Source: an uncultured Paracoccaceae bacterium
Lineage (GTDB): Bacteria; Pseudomonadota; Alphaproteobacteria; Rhodobacterales; Rhodobacteraceae
Direction of reading: 5' to 3'
NCBI GenBank assembly: GCA_947497065.1
Contig: CANMEQ010000001.1
Coordinates: 613,076-677,075 of the forward strand
Length of the DNA stretch: 64,000 nucleotides
Below are positions 27,226 to 31,288 of the stretch, one piece after another. Every line of letters starts with the position of its first letter. Positions within the stretch are counted from its first letter, which is position 1. Position numbers and translations under genes: made by a program. The notes under the pieces were generated by a model, which did not search any database, was not told where the DNA came from, and saw nothing but the letters and a program-made list of their open reading frames with translations.

Positions 27226-28962
27226 TTAGCGCATCTCTTCCGCTGGAGTGACACCAAGAATAGACAAACCATGAGAAATTACAACGCTTACAGACTTCAC
27301 TAGGGCGATTTTCGCCTGCGAAGCTGCGACGTTATCCTCTTGGATGAACCGCAAACTCACGTCATCATTGCCGCGATTCCACAATCCATGCAGCTCCGAC
27401 GCCAGATCATACAGGTACAGCGCAATGCGATGCGGCTCGTTTGTCCGTGCCGCAATCTCCACCACGCGCGGCCATTCCGCCGCCTTCGCAGCCACAGCCA
27501 TCTCCGCAGGATGGGTCGCAAGCGACAGGTCCGCCCCAGCCAAATCCGACAGATCAATCCCTGCGTCACCCGCCTTGCGCATCACCGAATGCACACGGGC
27601 ATGGGCGTATTGCACATAAAACACGGGGTTGTCTTTGGACTGCTCCGTCACCTTGTCGAAATCAAAATCAAACGGCGTGTCGTTCTTGCGCGTCAACATG
27701 ATGAAACGGGCCACATCCTTGCCCACCTCATCCACCAAATCCTGCACGGTGATGAACGTGCCCGCCCGCTTGGACATTTTGAATTCTTCGCCGTTTTTGA
27801 ACAAACGCACAATCTGCGCCAGCTTGATATCCAGCGGCACACGGTTCTCAGACAGGGCCGCAACCGCCGCCTTCATCCGCTTCACATAGCCTGTGTGGTC
27901 GGCCCCGAACACATCAACCAATGCGTCGAACCCTCTGGAAACCTTATCAAAATGGTACGCGATGTCTGGCGCGAAATAGGTCCAGGCCCCGTCACCCTTT
28001 TGCACAGGCCGGTCCTCGTCATCGCCAAACTCGGTGGATTTAAACAACCATTGCTCGCGCGGTTTCCAATCCTCGGGCATCTTGCCCTTCGGCGGCTTCA
28101 ACGTGCCCCAATAGATCAGATCCTTGGATTTCAAATCCTCAATTGCCTGCTCAATCCGGCCCGTCCCGTAGAGCGACTTTTCAGAGAAAAACACATCCAT
28201 ATTGATGCCCAAAGACGCCAAGTCTTCCCGCACCAAATCCATCATCGCATCAGTCGCAAAGCTGCGCACATCCGCCAGCCACACATCTTCAGGCTGGCCC
28301 ACATAGGCATCCCCAACCTTCGCCTTCAACGCTTCACCCGCGTTGATCAAATAGGCCCCCGGATAGGTCCCATCCTCAAACTCAACCGTCTGGCCATGGG
28401 CCTCCAGGTACCGCAAATACACAGACCGCGCCAAAACATCGACCTGCCCGCCACCGTCATTGATGTAATATTCGCGCGTCACATCGTACCCCGCGTAATC
28501 CAGCAAAGACGCCAAAGCATCGCCAAAAATAGCGCCCCGCGTGTGGCCCACATGCAACGGACCGGTGGGGTTTGCAGAAACATACTCCACGTTAATCTTT
28601 TTGCCGGCCCCCATGTCAGACCGCCCGAAATCAGGGTTGGTCAACACATCTTTCATGACCTGCCCCCAAACCGCCGCATCCAACCGCAGGTTCAAAAACC
28701 CCGGTCCCGCAACATCGGCACTGGAAACTCTCGCATCCGCAGCCAACCCTGCCGCCAAAGCCTCGGCAATATCGCGCGGCTTCATCTTGGCAGGCTTGGC
28801 CAAAACCATCGCCGCATTCGTCGCCATATCCCCATGGGCGGCATCGCGCGGCGGCTCGACGGCCACGTTGTCAAACGTCAATCCATCGGGCAACACACCC
28901 TCGGATGTCATCTGGGTCAAACACTCGATCACTAACGCGCGGATATCGGCAAACAGGTTCAT
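27226..28962 (-). CDS. argS: Arginyl-tRNA synthetase
   Basis: 578 residues, class I synthetase. The HIGH motif appears as SANPTGPLHVGHTRGA and KMSK as KMSKRAGTFITVQDLVDEVG. The N-terminal Arg-specific additional domain and C-terminal anticodon domain (FYVQYAHARVHSVMRKAG) are present. It is the head of argS-SPOR-nagZ-scpA-scpB. The usual upstream neighbour dgt is displaced by an opposite-strand membrane gene. Confidence 0.97.
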   Translation of the reverse strand: MNLFADIRALVIECLTQMTSEGVLPDGLTFDNVAVEPPRDAAHGDMATNAAMVLAKPAKMKPRDIAEALAAGLAADARVSSADVAGPGFLNLRLDAAVWGQVMKDVLTNPDFGRSDMGAGKKINVEYVSANPTGPLHVGHTRGAIFGDALASLLDYAGYDVTREYYINDGGGQVDVLARSVYLRYLEAHGQTVEFEDGTYPGAYLINAGEALKAKVGDAYVGQPEDVWLADVRSFATDAMMDLVREDLASLGINMDVFFSEKSLYGTGRIEQAIEDLKSKDLIYWGTLKPPKGKMPEDWKPREQWLFKSTEFGDDEDRPVQKGDGAWTYFAPDIAYHFDKVSRGFDALVDVFGADHTGYVKRMKAAVAALSENRVPLDIKLAQIVRLFKNGEEFKMSKRAGTFITVQDLVDEVGKDVARFIMLTRKNDTPFDFDFDKVTEQSKDNPVFYVQYAHARVHSVMRKAGDAGIDLSDLAGADLSLATHPAEMAVAAKAAEWPRVVEIAARTNEPHRIALYLYDLASELHGLWNRGNDDVSLRFIQEDNVAASQAKIALVKSVSVVISHGLSILGVTPAEEMR

Positions 28963-29024
28963 GGCACTTCCTTTCTCGGATGCGTCCGTTTAGCACTACC
29001 ACATCCCACGTCAACGAGCCTTGC

Positions 29025-30125
29025 ATGACACGAACCCTGTTCTTTCTTACGGCCCTAACCGCAACGCTAGGTGCAATGACCGCAATCCTTATGCGGATCG
29101 AACTGGCCTACCCCGGCGTCTCGCCCCTTTTCCAGACAACAGATGGCGCCCCAGACGGCAATATGTTTAGCGCCGTCACGACCTTTCATGTTACCGTTAG
29201 CTACCTGTGTGTCACCCTGCTTGGAACCACCATGGCCAGCGCAGCGAGACCAAAAGGCGCCCCGTTATCAGCGCTATTCATCGGCCTCGGCTGCCTTTTC
29301 TCCTTCGTCATCCTCTCGATCTTGGCCCTCACGCTCATACCTGCCCCGTCGGGCGATCAATCTGGCGTTGGATGGGTGCTGTACCCACCGCTATCAACGC
29401 AGCCCCAATCGATGTTCGACACACTGCTAGACATGCTGCCCTTCGAATTTTGGCTAGACCCAATTGTAACGGACATCACAAAAGTCTTCATGTTGCCGTC
29501 TTGCGCCATGGTGCTTCTGGGGGCCTATGCAATGGTCGCGACGGTGCCATCATTTCGCTGGCTGTCGGTGATTGGGGTCATTCTGTTGGTCCCAATAACG
29601 ATATTGGTTGGCGCTATCATCTTCGACAACAGCACCCCGTTTGTCGCGCCAACCTATCTCATCGCCGTCTTTCCATTGCTTGCCTTCGCCAGCATTCGCC
29701 TGATCGATGCCGCGCCAAGCTGGCTCATGATCCTAACGGCAGGGCTCATCATAACCTCGGTCGGTCAGATTATTTTTCTGATCATCGCGACCCAAGGCTT
29801 CATAGATGGCACCATCGCAGAACCCGCGGCAACCTATGTGTTCCCCCTTGGCATGGCGTTCTTTGCCCTGCCTGCGCTCATTCTATATGACCGAAACACG
29901 GACCTGCCCGCTTGGGCGACTGCGGCCACGGTCGGCGCTATTGCGATCCCAATGACCCTTTGGGTCTCGTTTTTGGTCAAACTGGGCCTCGACGGCATGC
30001 CCGCACGATATGTCGACTACCCGAACGCCTTTGCCGCCGACAACCTAGCCGTTTCGGCGAATGTCATCTTCTTCGCCGCAATCTACCTGACTGTTATCAC
30101 CGCCATTCATCGCCAAACCCGATAG
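29025..30125 (+). CDS. Truncated cytochrome c oxidase subunit I-like membrane protein lacking copper-site ligands
   Basis: 366 residues with about ten hydrophobic helices. Several stretches match heme-copper oxidase subunit I: MRIELAYPGVSPLF (compare MRMELQHPGVQYM), the run SGVGWVLYPPLST, and DGMPARYVDYPNAFA (compare GMPRRYIDYP.AFA), in the same order as in COX1. One helix-II-like histidine (TTFHVT) remains where a heme ligand sits. The HPE, HH and HFH motifs that bind CuB and the second heme are absent, and the protein is about 180 residues shorter than a real COX1. It is therefore unlikely to be an oxidase. The ATG at 29025 has only a weak ribosome site. It lies on the plus strand between the minus-strand genes argS and dgt and ends two bases before the dgt stop. 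Confidence 0.7.
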   Translation: MTRTLFFLTALTATLGAMTAILMRIELAYPGVSPLFQTTDGAPDGNMFSAVTTFHVTVSYLCVTLLGTTMASAARPKGAPLSALFIGLGCLFSFVILSILALTLIPAPSGDQSGVGWVLYPPLSTQPQSMFDTLLDMLPFEFWLDPIVTDITKVFMLPSCAMVLLGAYAMVATVPSFRWLSVIGVILLVPITILVGAIIFDNSTPFVAPTYLIAVFPLLAFASIRLIDAAPSWLMILTAGLIITSVGQIIFLIIATQGFIDGTIAEPAATYVFPLGMAFFALPALILYDRNTDLPAWATAATVGAIAIPMTLWVSFLVKLGLDGMPARYVDYPNAFAADNLAVSANVIFFAAIYLTVITAIHRQTR

Positions 30126-30127
30126 GA

Positions 30128-31288
30128 CTACCCTAGCAACCGCTCATGAGTTTCCAGTGCAAACCGGTCCGTCATCCCGCTGATATAATCCGACACGATC
30201 CGCGCCAAGGCGACCTCATCTTGCGCCGCCGCCACATCCTTGCGCCATTGTTTCGGCAAATGCTCCGGCTGGGCCATGAACAACGGAAACAAATCCTCAA
30301 CCACCTGCGTCACATTCTCCCGCATCGCCACAACCGTCGGCGCGCGGTACATCTGGGTGAACAAAAATTTCCGAACAACCTTCAGATCCGCCCAAAGCGC
30401 TGGTGAAAACTGCACCATCATCCGCCCCGCGCCCCGCACATCACCACACGACTGCGGATCTACCTCCGCCAAATTCGCGCGACTCACCGTGATCACGTCT
30501 TCCACCAAAACCCCGAAAAAGCGCCGCAGCGCCTCATGCCGGCGGCGGTATTTGTCGAGGTTCGGATAAGTAACATCCACCTCCCGAAAACACTCCCCAA
30601 CAATCGGCAGCCCCAGCAAATCATCCGTGCTAAACAGCTCTGCCCGCAACCCGTCGTGAATATCATGATGGTTGTAGGCCACATCATCGGCCAACGCCGC
30701 CACCTGCGCCTCGGCACTGGCATGGGTCGCCAACTCCAAATCATGGCGCGCGTTATACTCTTCCAACGCATAAGGCACCGGCCCCTGACCCTCCGCAACA
30801 ACCGGCCCGTTGTGTTTGGCAATCCCTTCCAACGTCTCCCACGTCAGGTTCAGCCCATCCCACTCCGCGTAATGCCGCTCCAAAGAGGTCACAATCCGCA
30901 CCGCCTGCGCATTGTGATCAAACCCGCCATAGGGCGCCATCAGCGCCGCCAGAGCATCCTCACCCGTATGGCCAAACGGCGTGTGTCCCAAATCATGGGC
31001 CAGCGCCACCGCCTCGGTCAGCTCGCCATTCAAGCCTAGGGCACCCGCAATGGTCCGCGCCACCTGCGCCACCTCAATCGAATGGGTCAGCCGCGTGCGA
31101 AAATAATCGCCCTCGTGCTCCACAAACACTTGGGTCTTGTGCTTCAGCCGCCGAAACGCGCTGGAATGAATAATCCTGTCCCGATCCCGCTGAAACGGCG
31201 ACCGAAACTCGCTCTCCTCTTCCGAATACAACCGTCCACGCGTCTGCGTGGGATGACATGCATAAACTGCACTCATAGCCTGCCTCAT
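30128..31288 (-). CDS. dgt: Deoxyguanosinetriphosphate triphosphohydrolase-like protein (HD domain)
   Basis: 386 residues. It hydrolyses dNTPs to nucleoside plus triphosphate. HD-domain residues are present: HSSAFRRLKHKTQVF, RLTHSIEVAQVARTIA, VALAHDLGHTPFGHTGE and FDHNAQAVRI. The ATG at 31276, with GAGG upstream, is an alternative start that removes four residues. It is divergent from erpA. Confidence 0.93.
   Translation of the reverse strand: MRQAMSAVYACHPTQTRGRLYSEEESEFRSPFQRDRDRIIHSSAFRRLKHKTQVFVEHEGDYFRTRLTHSIEVAQVARTIAGALGLNGELTEAVALAHDLGHTPFGHTGEDALAALMAPYGGFDHNAQAVRIVTSLERHYAEWDGLNLTWETLEGIAKHNGPVVAEGQGPVPYALEEYNARHDLELATHASAEAQVAALADDVAYNHHDIHDGLRAELFSTDDLLGLPIVGECFREVDVTYPNLDKYRRRHEALRRFFGVLVEDVITVSRANLAEVDPQSCGDVRGAGRMMVQFSPALWADLKVVRKFLFTQMYRAPTVVAMRENVTQVVEDLFPLFMAQPEHLPKQWRKDVAAAQDEVALARIVSDYISGMTDRFALETHERLLG

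Follow-up and report, generated by a model that had tools for sequence, protein, structure and literature searches.

A shortened descendant of oxidase subunit I beside argS lacks the oxygen-reducing centre's ligands and may hold a single heme

We analysed a 64,000-nucleotide stretch of DNA (hereafter the window) from an uncultured Paracoccaceae bacterium (contig CANMEQ010000001.1, positions 613,076 to 677,075), which carries, between argS and dgt, a gene for a membrane protein resembling subunit I of cytochrome oxidase (COX1, the ctaD product). The gene is a single clean open reading frame (ORF) with its ATG at 29025 and its stop codon ending at 30125. The extent and the 366 residues given in a preliminary description, made from the DNA letters, were right, as was its placing of argS and dgt on the opposite strand (Table 1). 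The protein has about ten long predicted helices, whereas COX1 has 12 and ctaD frames run to about 550–620 residues.

Table 1. Positions of the gene, its neighbours and the residues discussed (window coordinates)
Feature	Coordinates	Strand	Remark
COX1-derived membrane protein gene	29025..30125	+	366 aa; ~10 long predicted helices
argS, divergent neighbour	27226..28962	-	starts 62 bp before the COX1-like gene
dgt, convergent neighbour	30128..31288	-	ends 2 bp beyond the COX1-like gene
Interval from argS to the COX1-like gene	28963..29024	.	62 bp
Residues 24-31, RIELAYPG	29094..29117	+	equivalents of COX1 R54 and E56
His55	29187..29189	+	counterpart of the helix II ligand of heme a in COX1 (Paracoccus H94), by alignment
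GVGWVLYPPLST	29364..29399	+	COX1 helix III-IV loop (W164 region), by alignment; model confidence (pLDDT) under 50 at residues 111-125
Residues 199-240	29619..29744	+	in place of COX1 237-373; between the BLASTP blocks
Tyr271	29835..29837	+	preferred register: COX1 helix X heme a ligand position (Paracoccus H413)
DGMPARYVDYP	29991..30023	+	COX1 helix XI-XII loop (R474, D477 region), by alignment
High-identity island against L002	28950..30100	.	DNA identity 88-94%; nearby flanks 71-87%

The protein matches Paracoccus COX1 at E 1.4e-5 (phmmer, PDB sequences) and, by BLASTP, the ctaD product of its own genome in two blocks, residues 7–198 against COX1 31–236 (E 6.9e-9) and residues 241–358 against COX1 374–500 (E 2.2e-6). 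A profile of 43 COX1 sequences gives at least 20 bits to 22 of the 39 family members that we collected (the remaining 17 are lower or unreported), and none of 975 locally shuffled copies attained 20 bits, the top shuffle scoring 6.8. The three COX1-like stretches that drew attention to the gene are thus not a product of chance, and the proposal of a repurposed heme-copper-oxidase fold is supported by the same phmmer match and by the profile scores set against the shuffles. The predicted model likewise has the fold of subunit I of A1-type heme-copper oxidases, from which the window protein descends by sequence. The preliminary description had named the lack of a significant COX1 profile match as refuting it and, taken literally, that is what a Pfam scan of the window protein gave: PF00115 was not returned at E up to 10, in a scan whose filters discard most matches above about E 0.1. 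An NCBIfam scan of the protein also gave no COX1 match. Both scans would fit a generic membrane protein that is unrelated to COX1 and shares its motifs by accident, an explanation to which the shuffled copies leave next to no probability. Further reserve comes from hhalign, where the N-terminal half was not significant against COX1 (E 0.26), and from Foldseek, where the superposition was loose (query template-modelling score 0.38–0.64, root mean square deviation about 8–14 Å among the matches listed). We regard the common descent of the window protein and COX1 as shown at the level of sequence. Rows for UPF0242 and for an archaeal pilin in the Pfam scan lay under their cut-offs and were not accepted.

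Residues were compared in a joint MAFFT alignment of the 39 family proteins and the 43 COX1 sequences, the latter being the distinct ones of 45 chosen for holding HPEVY and HFHYV, so that the invariance of these motifs in COX1 is a product of the selection of sequences. The family comprises a close clade of 26 (P0001–P0022, L002, L005, L006 and L007) and 13 deep relatives, which are not independent of one another (G117, G619 and P0023–P0026 form one group, G257 and G435 another). No identical sequences were printed for removal before the 39-row table, and P0025, with an aberrant N-terminus, was retained and scored as lacking the helix II His. Members were gathered by profile, without use of gene location; the best 8000, 7999 and 7997 candidates were scored in the protein searches and mostly five per genome in the genome searches, with the best matches listed, and member counts are lower bounds. 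Residues carry Paracoccus names and are referred to by their roles in COX1.

Residues 237–373 of the genome's own COX1 lie outside both BLASTP blocks and are represented here by 42 residues, about 95 fewer. This part of COX1 holds the CuB ligands (at 270, 319 and 320 of the own protein), the cross-linked Tyr (274), E278 (272) and K354 (348). In the joint alignment the COX1 residue at H276, E278, Y280, H326, K354, H411 or D124 occurs in none of the 39 family rows, which takes in D124, E278 and K354 of the D and K proton pathways (0/39 each) and the proximal His of high-spin heme a3 (H411, 0/39). The H276 and Y280 columns are empty in all 39 rows, the H325 column has His in one (P0003), and the three CuB His and the cross-linked Tyr come together in none. 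The letter motifs HPE and HFH are found in none of the 39 sequences, and the letters HH in five, never in the CuB columns; the window protein has none of the three, as first described. Nor do homologues hold copper ligands in place, and His occurs in at least 6 of the 26 close rows only in the column of His55; the want of a second common His column in the close clade argues that the ligands were not relocated. The alignment puts other residues, not gaps, in the H325, H326 and K354 columns, so the exact borders of the missing block are uncertain. Because the ligands are lost, oxygen reductase activity of the window protein is not expected.

The pocket of heme a, in contrast, can still be recognized. 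Arg24, equivalent to R54 (which we take to contact the heme a formyl), is conserved in 26/26 rows of the close clade and in 11/13 of the deep ones, and Glu26, equivalent to E56 (presumably of the non-redox Ca/Na site), is Glu in 25/26 and 10/13. His55 is His in 25/26 close and 10/13 deep rows and is the sole His of the protein in six of the close ones; the single helix-II-like His pointed out in the preliminary description thus proved to be the key point. The D477 position has Asp in 23/26 close rows, and 32 of the 188 COX1-invariant columns that align to at least 20 close rows are kept in at least 21 of the 26. The loss is selective, residues of the oxygen-reducing centre having gone and those of the heme a pocket having stayed.

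In COX1 the second axial ligand of heme a is H413 of helix X. Twelve of the 13 deep rows have a His 53 residues ahead of a column in the XI–XII loop (G486 has Asn; the loop column is not Gly in G522 and G486), and 10 of the 13, from about five lineages, have His at both positions that ligate heme a. At that place of helix X the close clade has Tyr, Tyr271 of the window protein, in 24 of 26 rows, or in 25 with P0021, where the Tyr comes one residue later with a shorter loop. In a MAFFT alignment of the family only, the His and the Tyr of the 21 rows given share one column. One deep relative, G284, reads DTYFVVAQTHY against DTYYVVAHFHY of COX1, a match that makes its His the heme a ligand H413, with H411 turned into Gln, and that, together with the shared column, would put Tyr271 at the ligand position. 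The spacing to the XI–XII loop column is 53 in 38 of 39 rows (G284 counted from its His) and 52 in P0021, and the spacing to the T405 column is 8 in every row save G065. A rival register, given by hhalign and by the joint alignment, places Tyr271 on Y414 with a one-residue gap at H411, and under it Tyr271 would be an ordinary retained residue. We consider the H413 register likelier, because the spacing is equal on both sides and because G284 ties the column to H413; the Y414 register is less likely, because four deep lineages (G123, G257/G435, the G117 group and G065) would each need a new His beside a lost one. The helix X ligand position in the window's clade is probably Tyr.

Since the heme a pocket is kept, and the lost part is the one required for oxygen reduction and proton pumping, we favour, tentatively and with a confidence somewhat short of even, a shortened COX1 descendant that has shed the heme a3–CuB ligands, and with them the oxygen-reducing centre, and that would serve as a heme-handling respiratory accessory, not an oxidase. 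One heme is predicted to be held in the old low-spin pocket, likely between His55 and Tyr271, the Tyr either replacing the second His ligand or standing beside a five-coordinate iron. The heme, possibly heme a, may be taken up, stored or passed on at the periplasmic face, the presumed location in COX1 of the loops that are kept; this role is suggested by analogy to Surf1 (see below).

Several observations weigh against a bound heme. The low-spin heme of COX1 has two axial His (H94 and H413), of which the window protein keeps His55 only; the helix X His is absent throughout its clade, L007 has Asn at the Tyr271 position and P0004 has Gln at that of His55. Arg is found in only 12/26 close rows at the R474 position and in 4/26 at R473 (8/13 deep rows), and Trp117 of the III–IV loop, present in 24/26 close rows, in only 1/13 deep ones. 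In G522 and G486, genus-mates of G117, the Arg and the helix II His are lost, and in G486 the helix X His as well, so some members manage without the pocket. No heme or oxidase gene adjoins the COX1-like gene at the loci read. The loss of the pocket in these two relatives fits better the nearest rival, a heme-free scaffold or decoy whose fold is kept for contacts of the periplasmic loops (with COX2, cytochrome c or assembly proteins) and in which His55 is structural. The lack of the helix X His and the weak R473 and R474 in the close clade also suit it, as do the fast evolution and exchange of the gene (below) and the position of about 17 of the 32 kept COX1-invariant residues, by our own reading, in loops I–II, III–IV and XI–XII. 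Arg24 and His55, however, rank with the best-kept positions in the 39 divergent sequences, and it is the two His, not the GWVLYPPLS loop, that the deep rows preserve; we hold the scaffold to be somewhat unlikely.

The deep rows, with His at both ligand positions in 10 of 13 and Arg at R473 in 8, would suit a working one-heme membrane cytochrome, in which a low-spin heme passes electrons (for instance to quinone or some other acceptor, with cytochrome c or CuA as donor) with no oxygen chemistry. Against it, the protein would have one heme at most and no partner gene adjoins the gene, and with Tyr in place of His, as in the window's clade, the heme should be of low potential or unable to transfer electrons, as in other His/Tyr heme proteins. 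We consider this improbable.

Apart from the window, six loci carry the gene in Octadecabacter, Pseudooctadecabacter and uncultured Rhodobacteraceae records, and a seventh holds a remnant only. Flanks were read for 16 members (seven from the genus, plus G123, G117, G619, G284, G435, G257, G522, G486 and G065), and every one combines a full-length profile match with a divergent seat next to argS; dgt directly follows in 12 of them, and in G117 an antiporter-like gene stands between the COX1-like gene and dgt. Full-length members occur in at least seven genomes of six genera in a family-level sample of 394 genomes. In a class-level sample of 385 genomes a full-length match, at E 1e-17, was found in the window's own genome only, among the matches listed; of six other matches, all partial, five lie in frames of 537–561 residues resembling ordinary COX1 and the sixth in a 201-residue frame at a contig end. 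The window genome (3.25 Mb), searched with the COX1-like protein, returned only the protein itself. Among 73 further genus representatives whose argS side was read (1.5–5 kb each), only G117 and G065 carry the gene. The claim that argS and dgt are usually adjacent held in part: they lie within 250 bp of each other in 28 of the 73 but further apart in 18, and no dgt was present in the stretch read in 27. What lies between them varies, and in other Rhodobacteraceae genera different genes occupy the interval, by eye antiporter-like in L106, L108, L109, L112 and L114 and apparently small secreted proteins in L119 and L121.

Within the genus the gene is intact in 7 of 19 species, and a ctaD-like frame is present in 17. 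Four species have decayed remnants between argS and dgt, which points to low importance: L239 (G395) with two TGA codons, L236 (G401) and L238 (G396) as N-terminal pieces in two frames, and L241 (G407) as a C-terminal piece. In G402 the argS–dgt interval is 80 bp, and the remaining seven species showed nothing at E 1e-3 within the 1.5 kb or less that was read. The preliminary description had thought of an assembly factor, which the protein might be; a general aa3 oxidase assembly factor we judge unlikely, against such patchy presence and repeated decay beside the far commoner ctaD. The same genus has another type of small protein derived from COX1, encoded by short ORFs just downstream of ctaD on the same strand (L070/L072 in G398, L073 in G145, L053/L064 in G404 and L049 in G394; frames of 186–245 residues), which resemble only the C-terminal third of COX1 and have altered ligand motifs (AHYKY in L072, AGNAE in L053).

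Excepting the window and L002, the COX1-like proteins of congeners are only 32–44% identical, while ArgS is 79–89% and Dgt 85–93% identical. This, with the remnants and the 80-bp interval, might suggest a functionless relic, a dead ctaD copy persisting by chance. Yet no full-length match listed has an internal stop, the pocket residues are conserved and six genera hold the gene. Moreover, the ratio of nonsynonymous to synonymous divergence (dN/dS) is well under 1 in recent pairs (0.18–0.23 for window–L002, 0.06 for G117–G619 and 0.13–0.18 for the nearly identical G257–G435), which argues that the frame is under purifying selection. The relic is thereby strained and, in our estimate, quite improbable; the checks proposed at the outset, for decay in homologues and by dN/dS, gave open full-length frames and the low ratios just cited.

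The products of the window gene and of L002 are 91% alike. Their dS (NG86) is 0.23, against 1.01 for argS, 1.16 for dgt, 1.42 for nagZ and 0.73 for xth, and an island of high DNA identity covers the gene, the 1.2 kb on each side being 71–87% identical, with two windows further out reaching 90%. The low dS of the gene amid flanks of high dS, together with the island, suggests that it was probably exchanged between the two lineages after their split; strong constraint on synonymous sites would explain this less well. The window's ArgS is closest to L007, L004 and L006 and its Dgt to L002, a hint that the surroundings of argS have recombined too. Lost repeatedly and exchanged between lineages, the gene appears dispensable and conditionally useful. 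A foreign origin by base composition was rejected, GC (56.0) and GC3 (67.0) being inside the range of the neighbours.

In the 62-bp interval upstream of the gene no Shine-Dalgarno-like run was seen by eye before its ATG and no promoter-like site was scored by a promoter scan; a 1.4-kb scan gave one promoter-like site where 0.7 were expected and three terminator-like sites where 1.3 were, and these are not used as evidence. A block like GTTTAGCAC...ACGTCAACG lies at 28988–29016, before argS, and the ATG of the COX1-like gene comes within about 10 bp after it. The block is also present in 10 of the 11 species without an intact COX1-like copy whose interval was printed, suggesting that it is probably part of the argS promoter.

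Among known proteins, COX1/CtaD (A1 type, PF00115) shares with the window protein the helix II His, the formyl-contact Arg, the Ca-site Glu and Asp, the GVGWVLYPPLS and GMP-RY-DYP loops and the predicted fold. It differs in having the CuB and heme a3 ligands, D124, E278 and K354, and the window gene lies outside the ctaD locus. HasA-type hemophores ligate heme by His and Tyr, the ligand pair proposed here, but are soluble and of unrelated fold. Surf1, with two transmembrane segments and an extracytoplasmic domain, is not of the COX1 fold. As a comparison of function only, Surf1 is described as a membrane protein that binds heme A, probably via His, and as a suggested heme A storage and insertion chaperone (PMC9145763).

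The closest precedent, which also speaks for a scaffold, is a 'deranged' COX1-like protein of Acetobacter, described from earlier work as retained beside ctaB without any metal-binding residue and as a proposed stabiliser of CtaB (PMC10715153). Compared by that description only, the window family differs in keeping the heme a pocket selectively; His55 is retained, and the gene lies between argS and dgt, not with ctaB. What excerpts of two further reports say on such proteins is confined to ctaB and ctaA, described as what is left of an oxidase cluster in Acetobacter pasteurianus (PMC4013037, PMC6915089). Degenerate B-family oxidases of alphaproteobacteria may also have lost oxygen reduction (PMC6431628), but the window protein matches the A1-type ctaD product and stands alone. 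An argS-linked COX1 relative keeping the heme a pocket only was not found in the literature searched, a coverage that leaves out many subscription papers.

The initial observation is thus confirmed and its interpretation partly supported, and to it are added the selective loss, the two His in 10 of 13 deep rows, the probable Tyr of helix X, and exchange, loss and fast evolution at one locus. A bolder form of the favoured reading, which we regard as fairly unlikely, would have an oxidase cut down to its electron-entry heme, with two His ligands in most lineages and His/Tyr in the Octadecabacter group, carried beside argS in a swappable and rapidly diverging single-gene cassette and trading heme a with the cell's own oxidase. 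A family that retains the heme a residues and sheds those of the oxygen-reducing centre would amount to a set of knock-outs of the oxidase made by nature, its deeper relatives presenting heme a by itself on the scaffold of COX1 and the window's clade testing Tyr as a substitute for His. If no heme is bound, the family would be a second retained oxidase pseudo-subunit besides that of Acetobacter, raising the question of what such proteins hold on to. The family also offers an example of a central enzyme that was copied and stripped and has since been passed between lineages and lost, a single-gene cassette that cells can spare; if the favoured reading is right, it would show that an oxidase can be dismantled and reused.
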